Below, one piece after another: positions 15,151 to 36,149 of a stretch of 64,000 nt of DNA; the first letter of the stretch is position 1; the number at the start of each line of letters is the position of its first letter. A program made the position numbers and the translations under genes. A model generated the notes under the pieces. That model ran no database searches and had not been told where the DNA came from. It saw only the letters and a list, made by a program, of their open reading frames with translations. This DNA comes from Limnochorda pilosa (GTDB lineage Bacteria > Bacillota > Limnochordia > Limnochordales > Limnochordaceae), in contig NZ_AP014924.1 in NCBI RefSeq assembly GCF_001544015.1, positions 992,001 through 1,056,000 of the forward strand. The letters are read 5' to 3'.

Positions 15151-15414
15151 GGCTTGGGCACCGCTCGACGCGTTGCCTAAGGTCGGCGCGAAGAGAGCTC
15201 GAGCCCAGTCCCGCCGTTCAGCGCGCCTCCGTATTCCACCCACGTCAGCCCAAGGTCAACCCGCCACCTTCGCCGTACCGATGGGCCCGCTTCCGCCATC
15301 GCTTGGGGCACCCACCCTCTTCTGGCCACCCGGTACCCTTTACACCGTCACTCCTCGCGCCGCCCTCCATCCAGCTTTCGACGACCGACCAGGTGTCAAC
15401 AGATCCTCATGTCC
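15151..15414 (-). ncRNA. ORF-less cassette A with long-range inverted repeat
   Basis: 264 nt between two attC sites, with no credible ORF on the cassette strand. Arm GGTCGGCGCGAAGAG at 15,181-15,195 pairs with CTCCTCGCGCCGCC at 15,351-15,364 across 155 nt. The same architecture recurs in five other ORF-less cassettes. As a minus-strand RNA the one exception is a G-U pair, and one adenosine (in GCCGACC) is bulged. Structured RNA is inferred; the type label is provisional. Confidence 0.55.
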
Positions 15415-15481
15415 CTCTAACACTCGGGTTCAGGCGCGGTGGCGCGATAGCGCCGACGTCGCCTGGAACCCATTGTTGGGC
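15415..15481 (-). repeat. attC site, short divergent type
   Basis: 67 bp: CTCTAAC at the left, GTTGGGC at the right, arms GGGTTCAGGCG and CGCCTGGAACCC. Confidence 0.8.
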
Positions 15482-15484
15482 CAT

Positions 15485-15895
15485 TCACTTCTGCGGAACC
15501 ACGGCAACGGCATCAATCTCCACAAGAAAATCAGGGTGTGCCAATGCGGGGACAAAGATACCGCTAATGACGGGGGGATTCGGACGTTGGCCCCAAACTT
15601 TTTGAAACGCCTCGAATCCAGCTTGAGCCGATTGGCCATGCAGGATATAGACGTTCCACTTTACGACGTGTTGGAGTCCGGCCCCGCCTGCCGCGAGCGC
15701 TGTTTCCAGATTCTTTAATGCTTTTTCCGTCTGTACTCTGATGTCACCCTTGCCGACAATGTTGCCAGAAGCATCCACCGCATTCTGTCCACCAACATAG
15801 ATTGTTGTTGCGTTGCCGCTGACGACAACAGCCTGAGTATATGCGGGATTCTTGTGCAAGCCCGGCGGATTAAGATGTTGAACGTTTCCATGCAT
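15485..15895 (-). CDS. RidA/YjgF-family protein (cassette)
   Basis: 136 aa from the ATG at 15895, which has AAAGGAGGAAC upstream. YjgF fold features are NPPGLHKNPAYTQAVVVSG at the start, IYVGGQNAVDASG, QTEKALKNLETALAAGGAG and the C-terminal FLVEIDAVAVVP. The conserved catalytic arginine (usually near R105) is not in its usual R.AVxV..LP context here (NPPVISGIFVPALAHP), so it may belong to a non-RidA subgroup that lacks imine deaminase activity. Confidence 0.85.
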   Translation of the reverse strand: MHGNVQHLNPPGLHKNPAYTQAVVVSGNATTIYVGGQNAVDASGNIVGKGDIRVQTEKALKNLETALAAGGAGLQHVVKWNVYILHGQSAQAGFEAFQKVWGQRPNPPVISGIFVPALAHPDFLVEIDAVAVVPQK

Positions 15896-15932
15896 AAGCT
15901 CTTGTTCCTCCTTTAGGGGCGAGAGACTGACA

Positions 15933-16026
15933 GCCCAACGTCCTGCCGTATCAGCGGCGCCGCCACCCCGCCTCCGAGCGAAGCGTCTTGCCCAACTACG
16001 GCGTCCGCTGCATACGCTTGCTAGAC
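15933..16026 (-). repeat. attC site
   Basis: GCCCAAC left, GCTAGAC right; common CGTATCAGCGGCGCC subtype. Confidence 0.9.
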
Positions 16027-16037
16027 GGCCGGCCATG

Positions 16038-16234
16038 TCACTGGAACTGTCCTACCTCAGGGACCGACAGTCCCCGACAGATCTTCCGTGCCAGCTCGTC
16101 CGGGATCTCCACATGACGAGGAATGGTTTCTATGGCGCCCGTCTGCGGATTCATCCAGAGCGAGTGCGACGGCCTTCCCGCTTGAGAACACAGCCGTGTT
16201 TCCTCAGATGCCGAAGTAAGGCACCTCGTTTCAC
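16038..16234 (-). pseudogene. hicA: HicA toxin, copy 1, frameshifted
   Basis: Begins with the GTG that overlaps the hicB stop (GTGA) and reads VKRGALLRHLRKHGCVLKREG, the HicA double-stranded-RNA-binding start. A missing C near 16,172 (GCGACGGCC, where the intact third copy has GCGACCGGCC) then breaks the frame. The rest (SHSLWMNPQTGAIETIPRHVEIP) is in another frame, separating the toxic His region from the start. The same lesion is in copy 2. Confidence 0.8.
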
Positions 16235-16446
16235 CGAACGCTGACCCTCTCAACGACAGCGTCGGGCGGAATCCCACGCAGTCCCTGATCCCGACGGTCC
16301 TCGAGGATCAAGCGGATGGCTTCCGATAGGCTTTGCAGCGCTTCATCCTGCGTCTTGCCCTGGCCGTTAGCGCCCGGAACCTCGGGAGAATACGCAATGA
16401 ACCACTGCCCATCCCGCTCAACAACCGCCGTGAACTCGTTGGCCAC
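16231..16446 (-). CDS. hicB: HicB antitoxin, copy 1 (cassette)
   Basis: 71 aa: EFTAVVERDGQWFIAYSPEVPGANGQGKTQDEALQSLSEAIRLILEDR is the HicB partially degenerated RNase H-like fold; no DNA-binding extension is present, so this is the short form. It is encoded before hicA. About 140 nt of leader separate it from the attC on its right; a TAGAAT -10-like element (GGTAGAATAG) is in that leader, so a private promoter is possible. Nearly identical to copies at 18,758 and 35,365. Confidence 0.88.
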   Translation of the reverse strand: MANEFTAVVERDGQWFIAYSPEVPGANGQGKTQDEALQSLSEAIRLILEDRRDQGLRGIPPDAVVERVSVR

Positions 16447-16592
16447 GCGACCAGCCCCCCATCCACCATCAGCACCCTTGCGCTTGCCCTACTATTCTAC
16501 CGCACCGCGCTGCATCGTGCTGAGTCCCACGTGGCCACTACCGTCTCCCAGAAGAAGCTCAATGAGCCTTCGCACATCTGCCAACTCCGTCC

Positions 16593-16688
16593 GTCTAGCG
16601 CCCTTGCGGCTCAGCGGCGCCGACGGCCGGCGTCAACTTGTCCCCTCCCGACTCCCCCTTCGGCGTCCGCTGCAGCCGCTTGTTAGGG
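16593..16688 (-). repeat. attC site
   Basis: GTCTAGC left, GTTAGGG right; GCGGCTCAGCGGCGCC subtype. Confidence 0.9.
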
Positions 16689-16709
16689 CGGTCACCGCAT
16701 CTCATCCAC

Positions 16710-17264
16710 TCACTTGCGCAGCGCTAGCTTGATGGAACATCGGCTCGCGGCGGCGTCGAGAAGCGCATGCAGGGTCTTGGATCTCTCGCGCACGTCGAGG
16801 TCGCCGGCGGACCGCCGAGCGTCTTCGAGTGCGGATCGCAGCTCCGACAGGTCGAGAACGGTGGCGGCGATGCAGTAGTAGGTCTTCGACCGCCCTTCAT
16901 TGAAGTGGGCGAGCATCTCGTCGAGCAGTTCCTCCCGGGCGCACTGTTCCTCGATGAACAGGTCGAGCCCGGCACGCTTGATCAGGGCGATGTTGCCGTC
17001 GAGCGACGCGTAGCAGGTGAAGGTGTCGCGCTGCCGTCCGAAAGCGCGGTGCTCCGCCCAGCGCGCGCATGACTCGCTCTCGGCGCAATCCCAGCAGAAT
17101 TCGATGCCCTTGCGTTTCACGGCGCACGTGATGAAGGGGCAGCCAGCAGATACGCGAATCTCGCTCTTGCATCCACCGCAGCGGCTCGCTCCCTCCGTGT
17201 GATAGCGTGGGCACAGCCGACACGACAACCCGCAGATCCCGACCTCGGGGTAACGAAACTTCAT
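16710..17264 (-). CDS. DUF3795 cysteine-rich protein (cassette)
   Basis: 184 aa from the ATG at 17264. The N-terminal half has closely spaced Cys typical of DUF3795: GICGLSCRLCPRYHTEG, CGGCKS, CPFITCAVKRKGIEFCWDCAE. It probably binds zinc or an Fe-S cluster. A helical C-terminal part follows. Function is unknown; members are common as solitary genes in Firmicutes and methanogens. An earlier in-frame codon could extend it by five residues. Confidence 0.82.
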   Translation of the reverse strand: MKFRYPEVGICGLSCRLCPRYHTEGASRCGGCKSEIRVSAGCPFITCAVKRKGIEFCWDCAESESCARWAEHRAFGRQRDTFTCYASLDGNIALIKRAGLDLFIEEQCAREELLDEMLAHFNEGRSKTYYCIAATVLDLSELRSALEDARRSAGDLDVRERSKTLHALLDAAASRCSIKLALRK

Positions 17265-17294
17265 TGGCGCCCCCCCCACCCGTGCCGTGACCCG

Positions 17295-17387
17295 GCCTAA
17301 CGTCCTGCCGTATCAGCGGCGCCGCCACCCGGCCGCCGGCCGGTGCTCCGGGCCACCTACGGCGTTCGCTGCATGCGCTTGTTGGGG
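17295..17387 (-). repeat. attC site
   Basis: GCCTAAC left, GTTGGGG right; CGTATCAGCGGCGCC arm against GGCGTTCGCTGCATGCGC. Confidence 0.9.
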
Positions 17388-17806
17388 CTGTGGGCGAATC
17401 CGCGAAACGGTCTCCTCGGTCGGCACGAAGAGACAAGAAAGGCACGGGACCCTGCTCGCTCGTACGTCCCACTCCATACGCTCAACCTCCGCGTGCCATC
17501 GCGCGGGTACTCCGGAGCCCGCGCCGTGACCCAGCCCTACCCACTTAGCGTTTCTGTGGAACTAGTACCCTTCACCACATCCGAGAAGTCCAGCGGCCTC
17601 GACGCAAAGCCACATGCGGCGAAACAGCCACCTCAATCAGTACCCAATTGACTGAGCGCACCCCTCGCGCACTCAGCCACTGTCCGAGCTCGGCCCTCCA
17701 TAGAGGAAACGTGATAGCCGACCATTCATTCTCGACGCTGTGACTCTTCGCGCCGCCCACCGCAGCGATACCGACAACTGGCCAGGTCTCGCACGTTCCA
17801 CCTGTA
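17388..17806 (-). ncRNA. ORF-less cassette B with long-range inverted repeat
   Basis: Longest member (about 420 nt). Arms GGTCGGCACGAAGAG (17,418-17,432) and CTCTTCGCGCCGCC (17,744-17,757) are 311 nt apart. The A in GGTCGGCA makes a U that pairs with G in the minus-strand RNA but an A-C mismatch on the plus strand. A 62-codon minus ORF at 17,572-17,760 has no family features and spans the arm, so it is taken as chance. Confidence 0.55.
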
Positions 17807-17899
17807 TCCTAACGTCCTGCCGTATCAGCGGCGCCGACCGCCAGCCACCAACCGGTGTACCCCGCCCCCTACGGCGTCCGCTGCATACGCTTGCTAGAC
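17807..17899 (-). repeat. attC site
   Basis: TCCTAAC left, GCTAGAC right. The CTAG supplies the stop codon of the deaminase gene. Confidence 0.9.
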
Positions 17900-18433
17900 C
17901 TCATCTTTAATCGGTGCACCAATCCTGAATCCATCCTGCGCCGGTCTCCCGCCTGCAAGAATGTACTCCAGAGCCCGGGGAGCATATCGCCTGAAGAGAG
18001 ACATCGACTCCTCCGCGAGCACATCGCCGAGATAGGTTTTCAGGTGTCGACGAACGTACGGATTCGCCTCGATGGTCTCCTGAGAGTATACGACTGGATC
18101 GTGCATAGCAAAGACCACGTGTGGAACATCTGCCATCACGGCAGCTCCAAGACACATCGGGCAGGGTTCGAGTGTGGTAAAGAGTACTGCGCGGCAGTAG
18201 TCTCGCCACAGGCGCTCACCTCCGGCAAGGAGTGCATTCAACTCCGCATGGCATAACTGGCTTCGTGCTTCGTTGTGGCGCGCTCGCCCGCGCGACACAA
18301 CTTCGCCGTCGATCACCACAACGGCTCCAACAGGCAGCTCTCCAGCTTTGCCGGCAAGATCGGCTTCGATCAGTGCTTCGCGCATGAAGGCGTCGAGGTC
18401 CAAGGAACCTATCGCATCCGCGACTGGGTCCAT
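17894..18433 (-). CDS. Nucleoside/guanine deaminase-like zinc hydrolase (cassette)
   Basis: 179 aa, ATG at 18433 with GGAGGCGAGCTC upstream. The cytidine/deoxycytidylate deaminase fold is shown by GELPVGAVVVIDGEVVSRGRARH, the zinc site CHAELNALL (His, Glu) and PCPMCLGAAV (two Cys). It resembles TadA/guanine deaminase members; the extra C-terminal 60 residues suggest a free nucleobase or nucleoside substrate rather than tRNA. The stop TAG is made by the first bases of its attC. Confidence 0.87.
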   Translation of the reverse strand: MDPVADAIGSLDLDAFMREALIEADLAGKAGELPVGAVVVIDGEVVSRGRARHNEARSQLCHAELNALLAGGERLWRDYCRAVLFTTLEPCPMCLGAAVMADVPHVVFAMHDPVVYSQETIEANPYVRRHLKTYLGDVLAEESMSLFRRYAPRALEYILAGGRPAQDGFRIGAPIKDEV

Positions 18434-18460
18434 GAGCTCGCCTCCGACTCTGAAATGGAG

Positions 18461-18553
18461 GTCTAACGTCCTGCCGTATCAGCGGCGCCGACAGCCAGCC
18501 ACGAGTCGATGTACCTGACCATCTGCGGCGTCCGCTGCATACGCTTGTTAGAC
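18461..18553 (-). repeat. attC site
   Basis: GTCTAAC left, GTTAGAC right; CGTATCAGCGGCGCC subtype. Confidence 0.92.
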
Positions 18554-18564
18554 GGCCGGCCATG

Positions 18565-18761
18565 TCACTGGAACTGTCCTACCTCAGGGACCGACAGTCC
18601 CCGACAGATCTTCCGTGCCAGCTCGTCCGGGATCTCCACATGACGAGGAATGGTTTCTATGGCGCCCGTCTGCGGATTCATCCAGAGCGAGTGCGACGGC
18701 CTTCCCGCTTGAGAACACAGCCGTGTTTCCTCAGATGCCGAAGTAAGGCACCTCGTTTCAC
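18565..18761 (-). pseudogene. hicA: HicA toxin, copy 2, frameshifted
   Basis: Same sequence and same missing C as copy 1. Because both share the lesion, one cassette is a duplicate of the other made after the toxin was inactivated. Confidence 0.8.
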
Positions 18762-18973
18762 CGAACGCTGACCCTCTCAACGACAGCGTCGGGCGGAATC
18801 CCACGCAGTCCCTGATCCCGACGGTCCTCGAGGATCAAGCGGATGGCTTCCGATAGGCTTTGCAGCGCTTCATCCTGCGTCTTGCCCTGGCCGTTAGCGC
18901 CCGGAACCTCGGGAGAATACGCAATGAACCACTGCCCATCCCGCTCAACAACCGCCGTGAACTCGTTGGCCAC
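18758..18973 (-). CDS. hicB: HicB antitoxin, copy 2 (cassette)
   Basis: Identical in predicted protein to copy 1 (71 aa). The whole 565-bp cassette, including the non-coding leader, is repeated; differences begin in the next attC, where this copy has the CGTATCAGC subtype instead of GCGGCTCAGC. An antitoxin kept while its toxin is broken could still counter the intact copy 3 toxin. Confidence 0.88.
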   Translation of the reverse strand: MANEFTAVVERDGQWFIAYSPEVPGANGQGKTQDEALQSLSEAIRLILEDRRDQGLRGIPPDAVVERVSVR

Positions 18974-19119
18974 GCGACCAGCCCCCCATCCACCATCAGC
19001 ACCCTTGCGCTTGCCCTACTATTCTACCGCACCGCGCTGCATCGTGCTGAGTCCCACGTGGCCACTACCGTCTCCCAGAAGAAGCTCAATGAGCCTTCGC
19101 ACTCCTGCCAACTCCGTCC

Positions 19120-19213
19120 GTCTAACGTTCTGCCGTATCAGCGGCGCCGCCTGCCAGTCACCGATCGAGTCTCTCCGGCCTCCTACGGCGTCCGCTGAAT
19201 ACGCTTGCTAGAC
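19120..19213 (-). repeat. attC site
   Basis: GTCTAAC left, GCTAGAC right. Its loop-side segment (GATCGAGTCTCTCCGGCC) also occurs in the sites at 23,149 and 48,371. Confidence 0.92.
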
Positions 19214-19250
19214 GCCCAACGCAGAGCACCGCTTGTCGTTGAGTTGCGAG

Positions 19251-19904
19251 CTAATCCTCGGCGAGCAGCTCGTCAAGCGCGTCGCGCTTGCGTCGATTGC
19301 ATTCGCTGTGGACAAGCCGAAGGTTTTCAGGCGTAGTAGGCCCTCCCCTTGACCACGGTATGATATGGTCAAACTCGACCTGGTTATCCGGCACCGGTTG
19401 GTGGCATATCTGACAGATTTGCCCGTCACGTCTCACCACCTTCAGCATAACCTCATGCGGTATGGCTCGGCTCATCCGACGGGTCGCGCGCGTCTCAGTA
19501 GCCAACTCCGCGACAAAGAAGACCGGGCAAACGTGCCCAAACACTCGGCAGGACACGTCCTGCAAGACCTGGGGAACAGCCTCAGGATAATCCTCCGCAT
19601 TGAACTCAGCGACGCGCTGCTCGAACTCCTCCCTCCTCTCGTCGTCCAACGGTTCTCCGCTTCCAAGCCTCCCTGATTTTAGGCACTGGCTGAAGTACTC
19701 GTTGTGCTCAATGGCATCCGCACGTAACGGGGGGAGTAACGGGAATTGCTCCACCAGGGGACCGTACGGGCAGTACTTGATCTCCCAGCAAGGTTTGCAG
19801 ATCTGACGGATACGCCTACCCCAATCGGAGAGGACTTGACTGTCCGGGCTATCGGGCTTATATCCTAAGGCGACTTTCACGGAAGCGTGTAGCCTGTCAG
19901 CCAA
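19251..19904 (-). CDS. HNH endonuclease (cassette)
   Basis: 217 aa if started at the TTG at 19904, which follows GGGGGG; no ATG fits, and the frame runs on into the attC. The C-terminal 60 residues are a classical zinc-finger HNH domain: CQICHQPVPDNQVEFDHIIPWSRGGPT, ENLRLVHSECNRRK, with two CxxC pairs and DH..H. An N-terminal CKPCWEIKYCPYGPLVEQFPLL motif occurs in a group of HNH proteins found near defence loci. Likely a DNA-nicking or restriction-like enzyme. Confidence 0.85.
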   Translation of the reverse strand: MADRLHASVKVALGYKPDSPDSQVLSDWGRRIRQICKPCWEIKYCPYGPLVEQFPLLPPLRADAIEHNEYFSQCLKSGRLGSGEPLDDERREEFEQRVAEFNAEDYPEAVPQVLQDVSCRVFGHVCPVFFVAELATETRATRRMSRAIPHEVMLKVVRRDGQICQICHQPVPDNQVEFDHIIPWSRGGPTTPENLRLVHSECNRRKRDALDELLAED

Positions 19905-19922
19905 AGTGGTAGCCCCCCGTGC

Positions 19923-20031
19923 GTCTAACGGACTGCGCTTCAGCTGCCGTCGAGGCGCGCTCTCCAAGAAGACCTCGAAAACCGTACGATCTTGCGCGCC
20001 GAAGGCGGTCAGCTGCAAGCACTTGTTGGGC
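19923..20031 (-). repeat. attC site, divergent long type
   Basis: GTCTAAC left, GTTGGGC right; arms TGCGCTTCAGCTGCCG and GGTCAGCTGCAAGCA. Sequence outside the core differs from the array majority, suggesting a cassette acquired from elsewhere. Confidence 0.82.
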
Positions 20032-20054
20032 AGTGCGGACGTGATGACAATCGC

Positions 20055-20570
20055 TCAGCAGTCGAACACCGACCAGCAGATGGCGTTGCGTAAACGCTGG
20101 TCATCCAGAACTAGCTCGCGAACCGCCTCCGGCAACTGCTCACGCTGCCACGCACACTCGTGCCGACCGGCCTGTTCACCCTGGCCGTCAGGTGCGGCAG
20201 CCCGTGCAGCCTTGATCGCGTACGCGGCAGCACCGAGTTCATGTGCGGCGACGTGGGCGACGGCGGCGGCCTGACCTGCGGCATAGGCGGCATAGCGCGC
20301 GGCCCCGGTGAGATCTCGAGCCGCTGCATTGGCGGCGCCCGCCGCAGCGCGAGCCTCAGACATCGTGATCTCGCCGCGCACCCACGCCCGGGCCTGGTCG
20401 ATGGCATGGCGCGGACGCGGATCCGAAGGCTGCACCGCCTCGAAGAGAGGCAACACGTGCTCCGCGCAGTCGGCCGCCCATTGAGCGAGAAGCCGGTGAT
20501 GCGAGTCTTCCAGCGTGCCGCCGCGACGGATGGTGATGAATCGGGGATCGCGCTCCTTGGGGAGAATCAC
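20055..20570 (-). CDS. Imm-5-like putative immunity protein (cassette)
   Basis: 171 aa from the GTG at 20570 (AAGGAGGCAGACCT upstream). The alanine-rich helical repeat with LAQWAADCAEHVLPLFE, RHAIDQARAWVRGE and AHVAAHELGAAAYAIKAARAA is the pattern of proteins annotated as Imm-5-like immunity proteins. These protect against contact-dependent toxins in some systems; here no toxin is adjacent. Function by similarity only. Confidence 0.7.
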   Translation of the reverse strand: MILPKERDPRFITIRRGGTLEDSHHRLLAQWAADCAEHVLPLFEAVQPSDPRPRHAIDQARAWVRGEITMSEARAAAGAANAAARDLTGAARYAAYAAGQAAAVAHVAAHELGAAAYAIKAARAAAPDGQGEQAGRHECAWQREQLPEAVRELVLDDQRLRNAICWSVFDC

Positions 20571-20594
20571 AGGTCTGCCTCCTTCGCTTCATCT

Positions 20595-20688
20595 GCCCAA
20601 CGTCCTTGCGTTTCAGCGGCGCCGCCACCCAGCCCCCGGTCGAGACGCCCCGCCTAACTACGGCGTCCGCTGGAAACGCTTGTTGGGC
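20595..20688 (-). repeat. attC site
   Basis: GCCCAAC left, GTTGGGC right; arms TTGCGTTTCAGCGGCGCC and GGCGTCCGCTGGAAACGC keep pairing through matched changes. Confidence 0.92.
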
Positions 20689-21209
20689 ATCGTTTTGGCG
20701 ATTTCGGCTTCCTTTCTCGTCAGCTGATACCAGCAAACTCCGGACTCCGTGCCCTGCTGGTCCGAGGGTTGAAATGGGCGAAATCCCACACGTTCGGCTA
20801 CTCGTTGAGACCGCACATTGTTTGCATACGTCTTGAGAGTAATCCGGTCGAATCCTTCCTCCGCGAGAGCCCAGTGGCAGAGTAGGCGTAGTGCTTCTGT
20901 CGCGATCCCGCGTCCACGCGCAGATGCCGCCAGCCAGTACATTGCTTCACCTGTAGCCGCGTTGTCTTCATCCCGAACCAACGAGATGTTCCCTAAGATC
21001 TCATTGCTTTTGGTCTCGACGATCGCGAAAGAGAACACATTATCGCCCTTATTCACTGCTTCTATGGCCGCCTCAGTCTCAGCAACCGTCAACTCGCGGC
21101 GTTCGGTCGTCCACCTGTACACCTCTTCATCTCGTGCTTCGATATACCATTGAGCATCAGCGGTTTGCCAAGATCTAAGGTGCACACCCGCATCACCCTG
21201 AATGAACAC
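20658..21209 (-). CDS. GNAT family N-acetyltransferase, RimJ/RimL-like (cassette)
   Basis: 183 aa from the GTG at 21209 (AGGAGGAGGCAACG upstream). Motif A reads YWLAASARGRGIATEALRLLCHWAL and motif B TYANNVRSQRVAERVGFRP, the RimJ pattern. The ORF runs 31 nt into its own attC and takes its last residues (NKRFQRTP) and TAG stop from it, so the attC encodes the protein tail. Substrate unknown. Confidence 0.85.
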   Translation of the reverse strand: MFIQGDAGVHLRSWQTADAQWYIEARDEEVYRWTTERRELTVAETEAAIEAVNKGDNVFSFAIVETKSNEILGNISLVRDEDNAATGEAMYWLAASARGRGIATEALRLLCHWALAEEGFDRITLKTYANNVRSQRVAERVGFRPFQPSDQQGTESGVCWYQLTRKEAEIAKTMPNKRFQRTP

Positions 21210-21251
21210 CGTTGCCTCCTCCTGTACCTTCCCTAATCGTGCTCTCCGTAC

Positions 21252-21344
21252 GCCCAACGTCCTGCCGTATCAGCGGCGCCGACGACCAGCTACCGGCTGG
21301 TGCTCCTGAGTTACTCCGGCGTCCGCTGCATACGCTTGTTAGCT
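21252..21344 (-). repeat. attC site (first VOC cassette)
   Basis: GCCCAAC left, GTTAGCT right. From the arm inwards identical to the site at 21,808. Confidence 0.92.
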
Positions 21345-21423
21345 CGCCTGCCACGTCCCATCCAAGCCAACCTTCGATCCCCTCTTCCCAGGACCCCGGT
21401 AGCATCCATCCGCCGGCGATGCC

Positions 21424-21780
21424 TCAGCCCTCGAGCCCTCTAAGTTCCACCATACGTCCGTCAGGATCATACAGAAACGCAGAGCGTCCCCAGGGAAACA
21501 TCGTTGGACCTAAGACTTCGTATCCGGCCGAAGACAACCTCTCACACTCTGCATCAAGATCTTCGACTTGGAAGGCAACATGATCAACGTCCTTCGGCCA
21601 TCCTGGTTCGGCCGGCTCCTCCGACACGGAATGGATGAACAGGTCTACTCCTTCCACGTCAAAGCTGTACGCGTCGCGCCCCGGGTCAGGGGTGGACGCA
21701 CCCAAGAGATCTGCATAGAACATGGCGAGTTCGCCCGGTTGCTTCGTGAACCTCGCGACCTCGATGACCCGACGCTTCAA
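21424..21780 (-). CDS. VOC-family (glyoxalase-like) protein, tandem copy 1 (cassette)
   Basis: 118 aa; TTG start at 21780 with GGAGGTGGGGGC upstream. Two beta-alpha-beta-beta-beta modules: FTKQPGELAMFYADLLG at the start and KDVDHVAFQVEDLDAECERLSSAGYEVLGPT in the second, ending SAFLYDPDGRMVELRG with the metal-ligand Glu. Bleomycin/fosfomycin-resistance-like and dioxygenase members share this fold. A 556-bp tandem repeat with the next cassette. Confidence 0.82.
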   Translation of the reverse strand: MKRRVIEVARFTKQPGELAMFYADLLGASTPDPGRDAYSFDVEGVDLFIHSVSEEPAEPGWPKDVDHVAFQVEDLDAECERLSSAGYEVLGPTMFPWGRSAFLYDPDGRMVELRGLEG

Positions 21781-21807
21781 GCCCCCACCTCCAATGCTGC
21801 AAAGTCG

Positions 21808-21900
21808 AGCTAACGTCCTGCCGTATCAGCGGCGCCGACGACCAGCTACCGGCTGGTGCTCCTGAGTTACTCCGGCGTCCGCTGCATACGCTTGTTAGCT
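21808..21900 (-). repeat. attC site (second VOC cassette)
   Basis: AGCTAAC left, GTTAGCT right; copy of the site 556 bp away. Confidence 0.92.
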
Positions 21901-21979
21901 CGCCTGCCACGTCCCATCCAAGCCAACCTTCGATCCCCTCTTCCCAGGACCCCGGTAGCATCCATCCGCCGGCGATGCC

Positions 21980-22336
21980 TCAGCCCTCGAGCCCTCTAAG
22001 TTCCACCATACGTCCGTCAGGATCATACAGAAACGCAGAGCGTCCCCAGGGAAACATCGTTGGACCTAAGACTTCGTATCCGGCCGAAGACAACCTCTCA
22101 CACTCTGCATCAAGATCTTCGACTTGGAAGGCAACATGATCAACGTCCTTCGGCCATCCTGGTTCGGCTGGCTCCTCCGACACGGAATGGATGAACAGGT
22201 CTACTCCTTCCACGTCAAAGCTGTACGCGTCGCGCCCCGGGTCAGGGGTGGACGCACCCAAGAGATCTGCATAGAACATGGCGAGTTCGCCCGGTTGCTT
22301 CGTGAACCTCGCGACCTCGATGACCCGACGCTTCAA
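21980..22336 (-). CDS. VOC-family protein, tandem copy 2 (cassette)
   Basis: Predicted protein identical to copy 1; the DNA differs visibly only at GGCTGGCTC here against GGCCGGCTC in copy 1 (silent). The repeat unit is the complete cassette, as expected from excision-reinsertion or unequal exchange between attC sites. Confidence 0.82.
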   Translation of the reverse strand: MKRRVIEVARFTKQPGELAMFYADLLGASTPDPGRDAYSFDVEGVDLFIHSVSEEPAEPGWPKDVDHVAFQVEDLDAECERLSSAGYEVLGPTMFPWGRSAFLYDPDGRMVELRGLEG

Positions 22337-22363
22337 GCCCCCACCTCCAATGCTGCAAAGTCG

Positions 22364-22457
22364 AGCTAACGTCCTTGCGGCTCAGCGGCGCCGACGGCCG
22401 CCGTCAACTTGTCCCTCTACCCTCTCCATCGGCGTCCGCTGCAGCCGCTTGTTAGGA
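22364..22457 (-). repeat. attC site
   Basis: AGCTAAC left, GTTAGGA right; GCGGCTCAGCGGCGCC subtype. Confidence 0.92.
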
Positions 22458-22721
22458 GTCTTGAACAGTCCCTGACGCGGTCCCTTTGGTCGGCGCGAAG
22501 AGCACCCGGGCTCGGCATGACCCATCCCGTGACCGCGCGTCCCTCTCACGTCAGCTCGATCTCTCAGCCGGCCACACTTCCTGTGCTCATCCGCCCGTCG
22601 GGCCCCACACCATGGCCTCGGGGCCCTTGTAATGACCCGGTAGCCGGCAGTACGTCACTCTTCGCGCCGCCAGCCGCACCGACCTCGACCATCACCCAGG
22701 TCTCGAGCGGTTCAGCTGTAC
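22458..22721 (-). ncRNA. ORF-less cassette C with long-range inverted repeat
   Basis: 264 nt. Arms GGTCGGCGCGAAGAG (22,488-22,502) and CTCTTCGCGCCGCC (22,658-22,671) enclose 155 nt, the same loop length as cassette A although the loop sequences differ. No ORF with a start site on the cassette strand. Confidence 0.55.
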
Positions 22722-22812
22722 TCCTAACGTCCTTGCGGCTCAGCGGCGCCGACGGCCGCCGTCATGCAACCCGCTTGGCCTTCACGGCGTCCGCTGCAGC
22801 CGCTTGTTATGC
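22722..22812 (-). repeat. attC site
   Basis: TCCTAAC left, GTTATGC right; GCGGCTCAGC subtype. Confidence 0.9.
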
Positions 22813-23148
22813 CGGAGCCCTCATCGTTGCTGATGGTGTTCGGCCTCCAACTGATGGGGCCTCCGGTGGTCGGCCCGAGGATTCGGACGGCTCTCCCCCT
22901 TGCAGCCCCTTCGCGATGGGCCCTGTCGCACCGCTACACCGTCAATCACGCTGGAGAGGCGCCAAGAACCTCTCTGGCTCCGGCCTGCTTCCCGAATCCT
23001 CGGGCCGCCACGCTCCCTTTCGCCAGTTCCGCATCACCCGCTACGGGACCGCAGGTCCCCCGTTCGACGGCCTGGCACCCAAAGGGACGCCAGATGAATC
23101 GAGCCTCCCCTACCCTCAGCACCACTCGTTCGTGCCCTACCCTAATCG
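22813..23148 (-). ncRNA. ORF-less cassette E with long-range inverted repeat
   Basis: 336 nt. Arms GGTCGGCCCGAGGATTCGG (22,868-22,886) and CCGAATCCTCGGGCCGCC (22,992-23,009) enclose 105 nt. Compared with cassettes A-D the stem has changed on both sides (GCG to CCG with CGC to CGG, AAG to AGG with CTT to CCT), keeping pairing. The nearest relative is cassette F at 34.7 kb. Confidence 0.57.
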
Positions 23149-23242
23149 GCATAACGTCCTGCCGTATCAGCGGCGCCGACAGCCAGCCACCGATCGAGTC
23201 TCTCCGGCCTCCTACGGCGTCCGCTGAATACGCTTGTTAGAC
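23149..23242 (-). repeat. attC site
   Basis: GCATAAC left, GTTAGAC right; CGTATCAGCGGCGCC subtype. Confidence 0.92.
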
Positions 23243-29181: not shown

Positions 29182-29223
29182 GGTTTCACCCGGCGCGACG
29201 CGCCGACCTAATCGATCCCGAGT

Positions 29224-29264: not shown

Positions 29265-29468
29265 GGAGCGGAGGTTCGAGGAGTGCGAATGCTCGCCTGG
29301 AAGCGCCCTACCCTGGGCCGAGGAGGAACGGGTGGTCATCGAGCATGCCCGCCGCGGGCTTGGTCGTCCGGGCCGGCGTGCGGCATCCCCGGCCGAGGCG
29401 TTCAAGGCGCCGCTGGGTGGGAAACCCGGGCTCCTTCAGCGCGATGAAGCAGCCTTTGGATGGTTGTC

Positions 29469-29700: not shown

Positions 29701-29772
29701 CCTTCCAGCACGTCTCGGAGACGTCGGTGAACACGGTGAGGCGTCGCGCAGCGAACACGGGTCGATTCCCGC

Positions 29773-30300
29773 TCACGTCCGGCCTCGCCCCTGTGATTTC
29801 GCGGCGCCGGACCGGAGATTCTCCGCGACCGCAGCCTGGATCAGGGCCTTGAACGCCTCCGCGTCGAGCGCCTCTCCCTCCCGGATGTCGATGGCGCGTC
29901 GCGTGCTGGCATCGAGGCTAGAGTTGAAGAGCCTCCCAGGGTCTGCCAGGAAGGCGCCCCGCGCGAAGGTCAGCTTGACCGCCTGCTTGTAGACCTCCCC
30001 GGTGCAGACGATGCCTGCGTGAGACCAGACCGGCACCCCCAGCGGGTTCATGGGCTTGATCCACTTGCACTCCTCCGTGATCTTCGGATCCGCCTCGTGG
30101 ATCAGGCGGCGAACCTCCGCCAGGACCTCGCCGCGCCAGTCGCCCAGCGATCGGATCCGCTCGTCGATGAGATCCGAGGCCGTCCTTGCGGTCGCGCCTG
30201 CCTTCGGCGGAGATGCGGCCCCGACGGCCGGCTTGCGCGGCTTCATCGCGCGTGACGTGACGTCGCCTTTCGGCTTACTTCCCCTTGGTTCCAGCGTCAC
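29773..30300 (-). CDS. DUF1801/YdhG-like small protein
   Basis: 175 aa from a GTG preceded by AAGGTGG; an ATG at 30246 would remove a Lys/Pro-rich 18-residue start. The core DLIDERIRSLGDWRGEVLAEVRRLIHEADPKITEECKWIKPMNPLGVPVWSHAGIVCTGEVYKQAVKLTFARGA resembles the DUF1801 fold (YdhG/frataxin-like). Function unknown. Confidence 0.78.
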   Translation of the reverse strand: MTLEPRGSKPKGDVTSRAMKPRKPAVGAASPPKAGATARTASDLIDERIRSLGDWRGEVLAEVRRLIHEADPKITEECKWIKPMNPLGVPVWSHAGIVCTGEVYKQAVKLTFARGAFLADPGRLFNSSLDASTRRAIDIREGEALDAEAFKALIQAAVAENLRSGAAKSQGRGRT

Positions 30301-30491
30301 GGTTCATTCGCCACCTTTCCGCCACCTCATGTTGGTCTCCCATGCGTCCTGCGTGCTGCTACGGTACCATGCGGCATGACCTGGCGCGGTACTCTGTCGT
30401 CCAGACATCGCCGCATCTCGTTCGCGCCGTGCTGCGCCGTGCAGGGCCTGGCCCTGCACGGCGAGCGGAGGCGTGCCGGCTGTACTGGGCG

Positions 30492-30887
30492 CTAGCCTTG
30501 CCAGGAGATCTGCGCCAGCTGGATCAGGTTGCCGCAGGTGTCGTTCAGCATGGCGATGGTCGAGCCCGTCACCTCGGTCGGCGGCATGGTGAACTCGGCC
30601 CCGCGAGCCTTGATGCGCTCATGGTCGGCCTGAATGTGGTCGGTGTAGAACATCGCCGCCGGCTGGCCCTGTTGGAACATCGCCTGCTGGTAGGTCCTGG
30701 CCGCAGGGTTGTCGTTGAGGGCCAGCTGCAGCTCGGTGCCATCGGGCTCCTCCGGCGAGACCACCGTCAGCCAGCGATAGGGGCCGTTGCTGAAGTCGGC
30801 CTTCTTGACGAAACCCAGGACGTCCGTGTAGAAGCGCAGCGCCTTCTCCTGGTCGTCCACGTGAAGAGTGGTCAGCTTGATCTTCAT
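30492..30887 (-). CDS. VOC-family protein
   Basis: 131 aa from the ATG at 30887 with AAGGAGAATCAGT upstream. KLTTLHVDDQEKALRFYTDVLGFVKKADFSNGPYRWLTVVSPEEPDGTELQL, then YTDHIQADHERIKARGAEFTMPPTEVTGSTIAMLNDTCGNLIQLAQ shows both VOC modules and the metal-site Glu replaced by Gln in NLIQL, so metal binding is doubtful. Divergent from an ECF sigma gene across a 79-bp region. Confidence 0.88.
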   Translation of the reverse strand: MKIKLTTLHVDDQEKALRFYTDVLGFVKKADFSNGPYRWLTVVSPEEPDGTELQLALNDNPAARTYQQAMFQQGQPAAMFYTDHIQADHERIKARGAEFTMPPTEVTGSTIAMLNDTCGNLIQLAQISWQG

Positions 30888-30966
30888 ACTGATTCTCCTT
30901 TCTGGTAGAATCACCCTCGTGTGGCCCGTCACCCCTATGACGAAACCCAACGGGAGAATGTGACCG

Positions 30967-31842
30967 ATGGACGATAAATGGCTGGCGGAGCGCTTCGAGG
31001 CCGACCGCCCACGATTGCAGGCGGTGGCCTGTCGGCTGCTCGGCTCGGCCAACGAGGCCGACGACGCCGTGCAGGAGGCCTGGCTGCGGCTGAGCCGTTC
31101 CGACACCCGTGACGTGAAGAACCTGAGCGGCTGGCTGACCACGGTCGTGGCGCGGGTCTGTCTGGATATGCTGCGCTCGCGCCGGTCCCGGCGCGAGGTG
31201 CCGCTGTCGCCGGACGACGAATCGATCCCGGACGCTGCCGATCCGGAGCGCGAGGCGATGCTGGCGGAGTCGGTCGGGCAGGCCATGCTGGAGGTGCTCC
31301 AGCGCCTGGCGCCGGCCGAGCGCGTGGCGTTCGTGCTGCACGACGTCTTCGGCGTCTCCTTCGAGGAGATTGCTGGCATCGTCGGCCGCTCGCCCGTCGC
31401 CGCCCGCCAGCTCGCCAGCCGTGGCCGCCGGCGGGTGAAGGCCGCGTCGGAGGATCGCCGAGCGCCCGACGTGGCGCGACACCGGGAGATCGTGGAGGCA
31501 TTCTTCCAAGCCTCCCGTGCCGGCGACTTTCAGGCGCTGCTGGCGGTGCTCGATCCGGACGTGGCGCTGCGAGCTGACGAGGCGGCGCTGCGGATGGGCG
31601 TGCGGACCGGTTGGCTCACGTCCGAGCTCCGTGGAGCGACGGCGGTCGCCAGGCACTTCGCCGGCCGGGCCGAGGCCGCGCAGCTGGCGCTGGTCGATGG
31701 TGTGCCGGGCGTGGTGTGGGCCCCCGGCGGGACCCCGCGCGTGGTCTTTGGCTTCACGATCCGGAACGGCAGGGTGGTCGAGATCGAGCTGGCGGCCGAT
31801 ACCGAGCGGCTCAACCGCCTGAAGATCGAGATTCTGCCGTAA
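30967..31842 (+). CDS. ECF sigma factor with C-terminal SnoaL-like domain (ECF41/SigJ-like)
   Basis: 291 aa. Region 2: RLQAVACRLLGSANEADDAVQEAWLRLSRSD and SGWLTTVVARVCLDMLRSRRSR; region 4: LAPAERVAFVLHDVFGVSFEEIAGIVGRSPVAARQLASRGRRRV. After ~165 residues an NTF2/SnoaL-like domain follows (REIVEAFFQASRAGDFQALLAVLDPDVAL), which modulates activity in ECF41. The family's usual partner is a divergent oxidoreductase or decarboxylase gene; here a VOC gene takes that place. Confidence 0.9.
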   Translation: MDDKWLAERFEADRPRLQAVACRLLGSANEADDAVQEAWLRLSRSDTRDVKNLSGWLTTVVARVCLDMLRSRRSRREVPLSPDDESIPDAADPEREAMLAESVGQAMLEVLQRLAPAERVAFVLHDVFGVSFEEIAGIVGRSPVAARQLASRGRRRVKAASEDRRAPDVARHREIVEAFFQASRAGDFQALLAVLDPDVALRADEAALRMGVRTGWLTSELRGATAVARHFAGRAEAAQLALVDGVPGVVWAPGGTPRVVFGFTIRNGRVVEIELAADTERLNRLKIEILP

Positions 31843-32162
31843 CGCCGACCTCAGCCTGTGGTGGGCTTCCAGCGCCGACGCCCGGTCCGAGCCGTCGTCG
31901 AGGCGAAGATCGCCGGTTCCACTGAAGACGCCTGTCAGACTGGTCTTCAGGTCAGGCCGATCGACCGGTGGTGCCATGTATGGCGCTCCACTCTGAAACG
32001 CCTCAGGCGTCAACCAGGGTTCTATAAGGCCGAACCCGCCCGGATTGAGGTGGCTCTTCGAGCGTACATCATAGACCCCCGCCCCGGTTACTCCCATCCC
32101 ACCTGAGTGCACAATCCTTCTCGATCTTCCGGCGATGCGCAACCCGCTCTGTCCGGCTCGGC
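31843..32162. other. Unassigned spacer
   Basis: About 320 nt. A minus-strand frame is open but shows no family features and no ribosome site. Probably decayed DNA. Confidence 0.4.
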
Positions 32163-32444
32163 TCAGCGGAGGTGGGATGCCACCGCTTCCACCCGTTTGC
32201 GCAGCAGCGGCTCGCCGATCGCCCGAGCGTTCAGCTTCTCCGCACTGAGAAACCCGACGAATCGTGCAAAGCCGCGGGCCAACGCCTCCGCGAACGCCTC
32301 GTCGGCGCCGAGCGCGTAATGCACCGCCCGCCAGCCTTCGACGCGTACCTCTTCGGCCAGAACGTCCCGCACTTCGACGATCGCATCCGGTTGATCGCTG
32401 GACATCTTGCGAAGGCGCGGGTCGCCGTCGCGCTCGCCGCGCAT
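32163..32444 (-). CDS. Hypothetical protein or C-terminal remnant
   Basis: Up to 93 aa ending RVEGWRAVHYALGADEAFAEALARGFARFVGFLSAEKLNARAIGEPLLRKRVEAVASHLR. It has normal codon bias but no clear start signal, and lies next to a broken arr gene; possibly a fragment of a larger gene. Family not recognised. Confidence 0.35.
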   Translation of the reverse strand: MRGERDGDPRLRKMSSDQPDAIVEVRDVLAEEVRVEGWRAVHYALGADEAFAEALARGFARFVGFLSAEKLNARAIGEPLLRKRVEAVASHLR

Positions 32445-32513
32445 GACGACGCGCCAGGGCGGCAGCTCGAGTGTCCGGCATTCAGGCGAGAGAGAGCTGG
32501 CCGTGCCCTTCGT

Positions 32514-32845
32514 TCAGTCGTCGATGGGCTCAACAGCGATTTGCTCGAGTCGCTTCAGCCCGTCCTTCATGGCTTTGAGCGCTTCGGGGGAGTGCCCCTG
32601 CCAATCGGTGATCTCGCCCGTGACCCGCAGCGGCTCCCGGGAGCGGTATGACTTGACCGGGTTACCCCGGAACCTCTGATTCGTCAGATTGGGGTCATCT
32701 TCAAGCGGTCCAGTCGGTTCTACGGTGTAGATTCGGCCGGGACCTTCGCCGGCCGCCAGCTCTGCCGCCCAGACGGCCCCATCCAGATTGGGGGTGAGGT
32801 AGACATAGGCTGTCGTCCTGTCCCGCTCACCGAACCCCAGATGGA
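32514..32845 (-). pseudogene. arr: Rifampin ADP-ribosyltransferase (Arr), N-terminus missing
   Basis: The minus strand is open without a start codon and reads YVYLTPNLDGAVWAAELAAGEGPGRIYTVEP, then TGPLEDDPNLTNQRFRGNPVKSYRSREPLRVTGEITDWQGHSPEALKAMKDG, unmistakably Arr. The catalytic Tyr (YVYLT) and Asp (EDDPN) regions remain, but the N-terminal His (YHGT motif) and about 30 residues are gone. Arr inactivates rifampin with NAD. Likely a dead gene; an intact rph lies 10 kb away. Confidence 0.82.
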
Positions 32846-32939
32846 TAAGTTACGACATGTCCGATCTCACTACCCGATCGCGACCGCCGGGAGCCGGCTC
32901 ACCCGTGGAGCGCGTGTCTTCTGTGGCCATGGAGCTCCC

Positions 32940-33617
32940 TTACGGACGGGGCACCAGGTCCGCGAACCAGAACCCGTCGCGGCATACGGTCTCGCCCACC
33001 TGCACGGGAATCGCCCCTGCGAACATGGGGCCTGCAAAGCAGAAGGTGTGGAACTCACCACGCTCCCCGCACGGATCGACCCCCTCCGGAAGCTCGGCCA
33101 GCACGGCCGCGTCGTAAGGGCGTCCCACCAATCGTTCCGGCAGGTGATGAGGGTCCACGGCGGTCACCACCGCCCGAAGGCCGGCGTCCAGCATGCGACG
33201 GGCCAGTCGGGGCGTCTCCGGGCGGGAGGTCCACAGAGGGAAGAGGGGCTCGATGCCTGTTCCGGCGAGCTGGCGCTCCCGGTAGGCCCGCACGTCCTCC
33301 AGGTACAGGTCCCCGAAGGCTATGTGGGTGATGCCCTCCTGCCGCAACGCGTGCAGGGCCTGGGACATCCGCTCTTCGTAGGCATCGTTGGAGCAAGGGG
33401 AGGGCAAAGGGACCGGCCAGAGGAGCAGGTTCGCAGCGGCCGCCTGGGCCTCCACCAGCTCCTGGCGCACGGCGTGCATGGAGACACGCCCCGCCACTTC
33501 GTTGACTGTGGTCAGGAGGCCTACCACTTCCGTGTCGGGCTGCCGGCGTAACACGTACAAGGCCCAGGCGCTGTCCTTGCCCGAACTCCAGGAGAGCACG
33601 ACGCGGCGATTCATCAT
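32940..33617 (-). CDS. PP-loop ATPase related to diphthine-ammonia ligase (Dph6-like)
   Basis: 225 aa from the ATG ATG at 33617. PP-loop VVLSWSSGKDSAWALYVLRR; later THIAFGDLYLEDVRAYRERQL, GIEPLFPLW and a C-terminal GVDPCGERGEFHTFCFAGPMF with the EFHT substrate motif, all typical of the bacterial adenine nucleotide alpha-hydrolase-like Dph6 group. Bacteria lack diphthamide, so the real substrate is unknown. Its first ~17 codons recur as a fragment at 50.6 kb. Confidence 0.88.
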   Translation of the reverse strand: MMNRRVVLSWSSGKDSAWALYVLRRQPDTEVVGLLTTVNEVAGRVSMHAVRQELVEAQAAAANLLLWPVPLPSPCSNDAYEERMSQALHALRQEGITHIAFGDLYLEDVRAYRERQLAGTGIEPLFPLWTSRPETPRLARRMLDAGLRAVVTAVDPHHLPERLVGRPYDAAVLAELPEGVDPCGERGEFHTFCFAGPMFAGAIPVQVGETVCRDGFWFADLVPRP

Positions 33618-33847
33618 CCCGTCTATCCCTTCCGGTCCCCATGGGCCTGGGTGTGAAGCATCGGCATCCCTCCCATCCACCCCTTCGCCGGGAGGAGTGC
33701 TCGTCCGACCGAGGCCACCTCTGCTTCCGCGTTACCCTCGCCGCCTCCTGCCGGCCTCGCCATCGAGGACCGCTCCATCAAGGGGCCGGGAGGCGACCCC
33801 GCGGTGCGCCTCTATCGTCCTACCAGGGCCGGGCCCCGCGGCCGACC
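33618..33847. other. Spacer, nothing recognised
   Basis: No gene, RNA or repeat identified; Arg/Pro-rich frames here are chance products of high GC. Confidence 0.45.
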
Positions 33848-34380
33848 GGTGACGTCTCCAGCGTGCTGTAAAGAGTGAGGGACCTGGGTTATCCTGGTAG
33901 CGACGAAGCAAAGCCAGGAAAGGAGACCCAAGTCCCTATGAAGAGGATACCACCGTCTCGTCAGCTTGGCCAGGAGATCCAGGAGCTCTTGGAGCACGGG
34001 GTGGCCGAGGGGGACGGCGGAGGTTGAGATTCCGGTAGCCGTGCCGCAGGTGAGGGACGCGCAGGAGCCGTTCGTCTCGCAGCTCCTGGGGATGTTGGCC
34101 GGTCGGACGGACGAGCTGGAACGGCTGACGGCCGAGATGTACGCCCGGGGGCTTTCCACCCGCGACATCGAGGAGACCTTCACGGCCGATGACGGGCGGC
34201 GTGGGCTCACCCGGACGGAGGTGAGCGGGATCACCGAGGTGCTCTGGCAGGAGTACGAGGCGTTCCGAAGCCACAGCCTGGAGGAGCTCGATGTGGTCTT
34301 TCCTGGACGCGGTCTTCGAGCCGTTGCGCCGGACAGGGACCACCCGGGAAGGCATCCTCTGCGCCTGCGGGATCACCGTG
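33848..34380 (+). mobile_element. IS256-type element remnant
   Basis: Left terminus GGTGACGTCTCCAGCGTGCTG and promoter region match the intact element at 38,492. The transposase frame (MKRIPPSRQLGQEIQELLEHG) suffers an internal deletion of about 190 bp after ~25 codons, resumes at VEIPVAVPQVRDAQEPFV, slips frame near 34,300, and stops at 34,380 within the catalytic domain. The break fuses it to an integron cassette gene fragment. Confidence 0.82.
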
Positions 34381-34590
34381 AGGGTACAAAGCAGCCTTTG
34401 CCGGTGTTGCCCATTGCGAGTACGTGCTTGGCGAGGGCAGACTCTTCGGGCCATTGCCTCTTGAAATCGCAAACGTCCGTTTCTCCTATAGCATCTTTCA
34501 GAATGTTCCTTAGGGATTCGCGATCGGGGCTTTCCAGGAATGTGGCGAAAGTACTCCTTCATACCCTTTGGCTTAGTCCCCACTCCGTCA
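34381..34590 (-). pseudogene. AlbA_2/Schlafen-like ATP-binding protein fragment (truncated cassette)
   Basis: One minus frame reads TFATFLESPDRESLRNILKD, then AIGETDVCDFKRQWPEESALAKHVLAMGNTGKGC, the start of a putative DNA/ATP-binding protein of the AlbA_2 type. AAGGAG is at the right distance but no ATG is in frame. The rest is cut off by the IS256 remnant at 34,380. Its own attC is lost, making this the broken distal end of array 2. Confidence 0.55.
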
Positions 34591-34604
34591 GTCACCCCCA
34601 ATCG

Positions 34605-34697
34605 GCCTAACGTCCTTGCGGCTCAGCGGCGCGGCCACCCGGCCCTCCGGCGGTACACCTCGCCATCACCGGCGTCTGCTGCAGCCGCTTGTTATGC
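34605..34697 (-). repeat. attC site
   Basis: GCCTAAC left, GTTATGC right; GCGGCTCAGC subtype. Confidence 0.9.
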
Positions 34698-35066
34698 CGG
34701 GGCCCATCATCAGCCGCGAAAGATGTCGCGCCGCCCACTCGCTGGTCTGCCGTCGCTTACCCCGTGGTCGGCCCGAGGATTCGGCCGACCTGCCCAGTGC
34801 TCCGTTCCTTCGGAAGGGCCCTGTGGTAGCGCCACACCATCGACAGTCCCGGCCGGGTGCCATGAACCTCGCCGGCTCCGAGCTGCTTCCCGAATCCTCG
34901 GGCCGCCACCCCTCACGTGAACGGCAGCTCACAACCTACTACGTCACTGGCAGCCGGTGCTCTCTGAACCCCCAGACCCCTCGATCCGGCTAGGTCAAGC
35001 AACCACGGACAGCACCCGTGTCCACGCGCCCCAACTACCACTCGTCGTCGACCTCGCCCCTAATCG
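34698..35066 (-). ncRNA. ORF-less cassette F with long-range inverted repeat
   Basis: 369 nt. Arms GGTCGGCCCGAGGATTCGG (34,766-34,784) and CCGAATCCTCGGGCCGCC (34,890-34,907) are identical to cassette E and enclose the same 105 nt, while the loop has diverged except for GGGCCCTGT and GGCTCCG islands. The cassette ends also match E (TAATCGGCATAAC). Confidence 0.57.
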
Positions 35067-35159
35067 GCATAACGTCCTGCCGTATCAGCGGCGCCGATAG
35101 CCAGCCACGAGGCAATGCACCTGGCCATCTACGGCGTCCGCTACATACGCTTGCTAGAC
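35067..35159 (-). repeat. attC site
   Basis: GCATAAC left, GCTAGAC right; CGTATCAGCGGCGCC subtype with one base change (CTACATACGC). Confidence 0.9.
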
Positions 35160-35170
35160 GGCCGGCCATG

Positions 35171-35368
35171 TCACTGGAACTGTCCTACCTCAGGGACCGA
35201 CAGTCCCCGACAGATCTTCCGTGCCAGCTTGTCCGGGATCTCCACATGACGAGGAATGGTTTCTATGGCGCCCGTTTGCGGATTCATCCAGAGCGAGTGC
35301 GACCGGCCTTCCCGCTTGAGAACACAGCCGTGTTTCCTCAGATGCCGAAGCAAAGCACCTCGTTTCAC
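35171..35368 (-). CDS. hicA: HicA toxin, copy 3, intact (cassette)
   Basis: 65 aa, GTG start overlapping the hicB stop by 4 nt (GTGA). KRGALLRHLRKHGCVLKREGRSHSLWMNPQTGAIETIPRHVEIPDKLARKICRGL is a full HicA: the SHSLW strand region and the catalytic His in PRHVEI. It cleaves mRNA independently of the ribosome when not bound by HicB. The only one of three copies with an unbroken frame. Confidence 0.9.
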   Translation of the reverse strand: MKRGALLRHLRKHGCVLKREGRSHSLWMNPQTGAIETIPRHVEIPDKLARKICRGLSVPEVGQFQ

Positions 35369-35580
35369 GGAACGCTGACCCTCTCAACGACAGCGTCGGG
35401 CGGAATCCCACGCAGTCCCTGATCCCTACGGTCCTCGAGGATCAAGCGGATGGCTTCCGATAGGCTTTGCAGCGCTTCATCCTTCGTCTTGCCCTGGCCG
35501 TTAGCGCCCGGAACCTCGGGAGAATACGCAATGAACCACTGCCCATCCCGCTCAACAACCGCCGTGAACTCGTTGGCCAC
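35365..35580 (-). CDS. hicB: HicB antitoxin, copy 3 (cassette)
   Basis: 71 aa, differing from copies 1 and 2 by two residues (TKDEAL for TQDEAL, final Pro for Arg). It neutralises the HicA encoded directly downstream with an overlapping start. Confidence 0.9.
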   Translation of the reverse strand: MANEFTAVVERDGQWFIAYSPEVPGANGQGKTKDEALQSLSEAIRLILEDRRDQGLRGIPPDAVVERVSVP

Positions 35581-35726
35581 GCGACCAGCCCCCCATCCAC
35601 CATCAGCACCCTTGCGCTTGCCCTACTATTCTACCGCACCGCGCTGCATCGTGGTGAGTCCCACGTGGCCACTACCGTCTCCCAGAAGAAGCTCAATGAG
35701 CCTTCGCACATCTGCCAACTCCGTCC

Positions 35727-35819
35727 GTCTAGCGCCCTTGCGGCTCAGCGGCGCCACCGCCCAACCGTCAGACGGTGCACCCCGGCCATCCCGGAGTCCG
35801 CTGCAGCCGCGTGTTAGAG
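35727..35819 (-). repeat. attC site
   Basis: GTCTAGC left, GTTAGAG right; GCGGCTCAGC subtype. Confidence 0.9.
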
Positions 35820-36149
35820 GGCTGCTGCACTGTTCGAAGCAGTGCCTTGGGTCGGCGCGAAGACGACGGCGATCGTGCCGACTCGACCCCTACTCGCTCG
35901 TCCAGTACACCCCTGACGAGTTCGGGGAAGCAGCCCACAGCCCAATGGAGGGGCCAAGCCCATGTCCCCCCCAACCCCTTGGTGCTCTGTTCGGGGAGCT
36001 CCCTTGGGGATCCGCGGCTCTGAGCAAATCCCTGCGCCACCAGGTCCCCGGTAGTGCTCGTCCCACCTCGTGTCCTTTCGTAACGCGTCTTCGCGCCGCC
36101 GTCACCGCGGTCTCAGCGCTCGTCCCAGTCTCGACCGACCCTCCTGTCC
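35820..36149 (-). ncRNA. ORF-less cassette D with long-range inverted repeat
   Basis: 330 nt. Arms GGTCGGCGCGAAGACG (35,850-35,865) and CGTCTTCGCGCCGCC (36,086-36,100) enclose 220 nt. Where cassettes A-C pair G with C at the arm tip, this one has C with G plus a further pair: a compensatory change. The end shares TCGACCGACC and CTGTCCCTCTAAC with cassette A. Confidence 0.57.

Follow-up and report, generated by a model that had tools for sequence, protein, structure and literature searches.

The window analysed here is a stretch of 64,000 nucleotides of the Limnochorda pilosa genome (NZ_AP014924.1, positions 992,001 to 1,056,000), which is a single contig of 3,817,036 bp. It holds a chromosomal integron whose cassettes, oriented on the minus strand and interspersed with transposase-bearing DNA, extend from ~48.4 kb to ~12.5 kb, and six of these cassettes, like a seventh in a second array, are gene-less and share a long-range stem, which we call P1. 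The integron integrase gene, intI, occupies minus-strand positions 49228..50172 (it scores 482 bits with TIGR02249, whose cut-off is 265, and matches Phage_integrase in Pfam), and its product is assumed to be the mobiliser of the stem cassettes. The second array is shorter, has a broken integrase gene and lies at genome 946-954 kb. In the IntegronFinder 2.0 data, as given in the accessible part of their description, the sole complete Firmicutes integron is that of Limnochorda pilosa HC45 (PMC9024848).

A first-pass annotation of the window had reported two complementary arms in six cassettes that lack open reading frames (ORFs); each of the six does have both arms, at rechecked coordinates, and a seventh copy can be added. 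Five copies (A, B, C, F and G), here called type I, have common sequence at the cassette ends. Cassette A (15144..15420, minus strand, 277 bp) has its 5' arm at 15351-15364 and its 3' arm at 15181-15195, around a loop of 157 nt, and a short hairpin, P2, at 15157-15177. Cassette B (17382..17807, minus strand, 426 bp; arms at 17744-17757 and 17418-17432; P2 at 17396-17414) has a loop of 313 nt, and cassette F (35819..36150, minus strand, 332 bp; arms at 36086-36100 and 35850-35865; P2 at 35827-35845) one of 224 nt. Cassette C (22457..22722, minus strand, 266 bp; arms at 22658-22671 and 22488-22502) again has a loop of 157 nt and is without the P2 hairpin. Cassette G, the copy in the second array (genome 948773-949049, outside the window), is 97% identical to A. 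The two type II copies are cassette E (22812..23149, minus strand, 338 bp; arms at 22992-23009 and 22868-22886) and cassette D (34697..35067, minus strand, 371 bp; arms at 34890-34907 and 34766-34784). Both have a loop of 115 nt and are 77% identical from arm to arm, loop included; their flanks are not conserved. Loop lengths (115-313 nt across the family) are counted with arms of 13 and 14 nt, and the values of 155, 311 and 105 nt read earlier agree with our 157, 313 and 115 nt once the extra closing pairs are counted.

All seven cassettes end in an attC site, as detected by a pattern search that found 29 such sites, and all seven copies of P1 lie within cassettes. Single-arm and pair-pattern searches found none elsewhere in the 3.8-Mb genome; the latter reach loops up to about 225 nt, longer loops being covered by the single-arm search. 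Shorter loops of ~45-105 nt were likewise not found in this genome, and two further single-arm matches have no partner arm. Allowing at most one mismatch, the two arm patterns occur 11 and 17 times in the window, where 1.33 and 5.47 occurrences would be expected; none of 100 shuffles reached these counts, which overlap partly, each arm also matching the other arm's pattern with a mismatch. When 23 cassettes were scanned for long-range stems against 100 shuffles each, five of the six stem cassettes were never equalled and B was equalled by 8/100; none of the 17 other cassettes was notable (lowest 17/100).

On the cassette strand, P1 is formed by GGCGGCnCGAnGAn and nTCnTCGnGCCGACC and leaves the A of GACC unpaired. 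The helix has at least 14 bp, a base of GG/CC in all seven copies, and a single bulged A two pairs from that base; this extra base is in one arm only and is kept in 7/7 copies. Pairs 1-14 are standard in 98/98 cells. Pair 7 is G-C, C-G or G-U, pair 11 is A-U, G-C or G-U, and at pair 14 base identity is free and pairing is not, because it is G-C, C-G or U-A and yet matched in every copy (C-G in cassette F, G-C in the remaining type-I copies). Double changes within pairs 1-14 fall at 7, 11 and 14, and the one-sided changes all lead to G-U. Pair 15 forms in four copies and pair 16 in six; in D and E the helix extends to pair 18, with two more outer pairs readable by eye. Over 16 pairs, 108/112 cells are paired and double changes occur in five pairs. 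Covariation scores 0.304, while shuffles average 0.112 (standard deviation 0.034), none of 500 coming as high, and slid registers give 0.119 at the highest. These statistics overstate certainty, because the seven sequences represent no more than about five independent lineages. As the first-pass annotation had described, there are double changes, two G-U positions and an unpaired A; its claim of pairing kept through sequence drift is supported. In a helix search in register across A, C, B and F, P1 was the sole strong helix among the matches listed. The long-range covarying stem in these gene-less cassettes is real, and it is probably under selection.

Comparison of A, B, C and F without gaps (G was left out because it nearly duplicates A, and D and E because they are type II) gave 93-100% identity in the arms, against 26-66% in the 5' flanks, 22-52% in the loop ends and 42-68% in the 3' flanks; judged by arm-versus-flank identity, it is the arms that are the site of selection. 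The attC of cassette A (15055..15150, minus strand) is of a subtype marked by TTGCGGCT, which also ends cassettes C (22364), E (22722), D (34605), F (35727) and G, as well as one ORF cassette with its attC at 16593; B is the only stem cassette with the common attC type. The subtype accounts for 6/7 stem cassettes against 1/22 other attC sites (Fisher p=1e-4), in a tally of the 29 pattern-found sites that misses those near 15,420, near 19,910 and beside G, none of them of the TTGCGGCT type by eye. With this subtype in common, types I and II would seem to form a single lineage, and the differences between their arms would then be changes and not coincidence. We favour the view that the seven cassettes form one family of mobile gene-less integron cassettes with a base-paired product, most likely a structured RNA read leftwards, and our confidence in it is evenly balanced.

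Matching arms could also arise without ever pairing, if a single DNA-binding protein recognised them as two inverted sites, or if they were the termini of an element like a miniature inverted-repeat transposable element (MITE). Where the earlier description had left open an RNA or single-stranded DNA, and the sequence indeed fits both, this is a third option; one protein bound to two arms also gives covariation. The inverted pair with variable spacing fits such sites, as does the conservation of arms and loop (77%) without flanks in type II. However, three forms of pair 14 that are always matched, a pair 16 matched in 6/7 copies and an extra base in one arm of all seven copies are not what this explanation would lead one to expect; no arm pair is found outside the cassettes of the two arrays in the whole genome; and no target duplication is seen by eye in the cassette flanks. 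The type-I copies are not separate insertions, because their flanks are common to the type. The pair 14 variants, the one-sided changes to G-U and the unrepaired bulge favour pairing over both a symmetric protein site and copying between the arms, and we regard the protein-site or MITE explanation as quite unlikely.

The cassettes might otherwise be ordinary ones, holding a decayed or unusual protein gene or a promoter, with arms kept alike by inter-arm copying (quasi-palindrome correction) and no selection. The claim that they contain no credible genes holds, with one qualification: no frame on either strand is preserved across all copies in a six-frame comparison, and five antisense-frame translations gave no Pfam match to E 0.1, so that the conserved reading frame named earlier as a refutation was looked for and not found. 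The qualification is one frame, antisense to the cassette direction, that is open end to end in A, C, E, F and G (5/7) and that, at the arms of A, C and G, reads SARR...L(L/F)APP. This frame is nevertheless broken at the arms elsewhere, by stops in B, D and E and by a shift in F. The cassette strand of the gene-less cassettes A-G is rich in G, with a GC skew of 0.16-0.29 where 12 ORF cassettes have 0.01-0.21, and long antisense frames are cheap because their strand is G-poor. A protein-coding cassette is rejected on the unconserved frame and the missing Pfam match. As to promoters, accessible parts of one report describe activity in most of 29 gene-less Vibrio cassettes (PMC11014356), whereas a consensus-only scan of 15-25 kb, with D, F and G outside it, found no sigma-70-like site against 1.9 expected. 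Inter-arm copying, for its part, should have erased the bulge, yet it is kept in 7/7. These ordinary explanations are, in our estimate, very unlikely.

A structured RNA read leftwards is weakly indicated by the orientation of the wobbles. Among pairs 1-16, the wobble cells are pair 11 of A, pair 7 of B and pairs 15 and 16 of C; for 4/4 the cassette strand has G-U where the opposite strand would have A-C, an outcome with a chance of 1 in 16 (1 in 8 if the two cells of C are taken together). The base-paired molecule may also be folded single-stranded DNA, the arms forming a hairpin or cruciform in cassette recombination or replication, or a site for a hairpin-binding protein. DNA base pairing accounts for the covariation as well as RNA does, and each copy adjoins an attC, a known folded single-stranded DNA site, in an integron that has an integrase. 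P1 resembles attC further in its covarying inverted arms within cassettes and in its extrahelical base, attC keeping such a base as well. In contrast to attC, P1 has no R-box core GTT/AAC with which to recombine and has a loop of 115-313 nt, which is long for a DNA hairpin, and every stem cassette has its own ordinary attC in addition. Moreover, attC recombination folds the bottom strand, that is, the strand opposite to the one on which the wobbles would be G-T. We consider a folded DNA unlikely.

Several observations weigh against a structured RNA, in addition to the small number of lineages given above. The count of double-change pairs alone is not unusual, being equalled by 79/500 shuffles, and a continuous helix of 14-18 bp closing a long loop is atypical of compact RNAs. 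Whole-cassette folding on the cassette strand, scored against 60 shuffles per cassette, is near zero in 6/7 copies (z of -0.16 in A, -0.46 in B, -0.66 in C, -0.88 in D, -0.37 in F and +1.37 in G), E being the exception at -2.63. The opposite strand (A -0.22, B -0.27, C -1.23, E -2.35, D -1.62, F -1.29, G -0.77) folds relatively better in C, D and F. No conserved fold was detected in the aligned loops of D and E (z -0.93) or of A and C (+0.31), nor in the 5' flanks (+0.55); the alignment of the B and F loops reaches -2.13, but these loops are barely alignable. P2, the short hairpin 3' of P1 in 4/5 type-I copies (A/G, B and F), is equalled on its own by 95 (A/G), 151 (B) and 96 (F) of 1000 shuffles, and C has none (985/1000 shuffles).

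Beyond P1, only P2 is suggestive. Alignment of its flank gives a z of -2.94 without C and +0.51 with C, against -2.01 and +0.60 on the opposite strand; a candidate hairpin on the 5' side is no better than shuffles. A candidate pseudoknot, in which the 5' flank would pair with the loop, can be drawn on the minus strand (15160-15420 and 22470-22720), from CACCTGGT/ACCGGGTG in A and GACCTGG/CCGGGTC in C. The two are in one register, with an end pair changed from C-G to G-C; the pairing is displaced in B and is not among the F matches listed. We mention this pseudoknot as an idea only.

If the product is an RNA, the array would be transcribed leftwards, cassette RNA included, and P1 would act as a constant clamp closing a domain that is free to vary in sequence and in length (115-313 nt), with P2 following the clamp in most type-I copies. 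The clamp may hold or protect that domain, and the integrase would copy and move the cassettes. From this one may tentatively picture a modular RNA, with a fixed bulged clamp and an exchangeable domain, in which a library of RNA variants would be shuffled by the integrase just as genes are, possibly to act in trans against changing targets; we regard this as possible and rather doubtful. Integrons have been studied mostly as stockpiles of protein genes, and the roles of gene-less cassettes beyond promoters and a small RNA are largely open. Near-total divergence outside a compensating clamp suggests that what is selected in such cassettes is a folded nucleic acid, and the seven copies constitute a natural set of variants with which its role can be tested.

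ORF-less cassettes of Treponema and Vibrio are alike in being cassette-sized, in having an attC and no gene, and in occurring several per array; some carry promoters (PMC8876359, PMC11014356). Unlike the seven described here, they have no shared structure in the accessible portions of those descriptions, while the seven have a covarying stem in common. For ORF-less cassettes that encode a regulatory RNA there is a precedent in Xanthomonas, as summarised in the available text of reviews (PMC8876359). The Xanthomonas RNA sRNA-Xcc1 (RF02221) is likewise non-coding and on integron cassettes, although at 88 nt (PMC2996969, seen in part) it is far from the 266-426 bp of our cassettes, which its Rfam model does not match. 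What appears to be new is that cassettes of the ORF-less or small-RNA type share a covarying stem, so far not found elsewhere; in the titles and abstracts found, a coverage that leaves out most subscription papers, no shared stem in gene-less cassettes is described. Long-range processing stems, such as those closing ribosomal RNA precursors, set a long helix around a large independent domain as P1 does. They differ in that no processing enzyme or domain is identified for P1.

Rfam gave no match, at the gathering score or at E up to 2, in the window or in the six loci containing the seven cassettes, and the best match of the sRNA-Xcc1 model in the whole genome (19.1 bits against a cut-off of 53) lies away from the arrays. 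The further copies envisaged in related genomes did not appear convincingly at the loop lengths and arm sequences covered. A two-arm pattern of 23 fixed bases, with loops of 101-161 nt, had no match in 13 other genomes of the order or in 397 other genomes of the phylum. The absence in the order is little informative because none of its 13 genomes has an integron integrase above the cut-off. In IMG/VR the pattern had two matches; both fall within long reading frames on viral contigs, and neither is complementary at both free positions. Among 84,980 species it had 29 matches, which look like chance; the one complementary at both free positions (L033) sits within an open frame of 601 codons, with no attC-like boxes, and was rejected as chance. 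A looser pattern gave 13 matches (8 + 5) in 40 other genomes of the class, one of which (L078) pairs at 11/12 positions; it was rejected as a relative, being within a 286-codon open frame without attC-like boxes. With cassettes C and E as queries, plasmids yielded one record, a 33-base match beneath a cytochrome oxidase gene, and the one other genome of the genus had a 29-base match to cassette C at E 0.006 and none to cassette E.

Other features of the two arrays and their surroundings were also recorded. Each of the two integrase genes (49228-50172, minus strand, and the broken one at genome 953497-954436, minus strand) shares the strand of its own cassettes and points its 3' end towards the array, which inverts the usual layout. 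A lone attC-like site at genome 3545422-3545480 (minus strand) is distant from both arrays and has no stem arms in the surrounding 15-kb stretch. One cassette is present in three copies (16027-16593, 18554-19120 and 35160-35727) with 98-100% identity across a 300-base stretch; it resembles a HicAB toxin-antitoxin system by eye, and the single ORF tested had no Pfam match. The cassettes at 21345-21808 and 21901-22364 are a tandem duplicate, identical across the 300 bases compared. Finally, the sole ORF cassette (DUF3795) with a TTGCGGCT attC, at 16593-16688, has an attC 96% identical to that of cassette A, as if the site had been exchanged.

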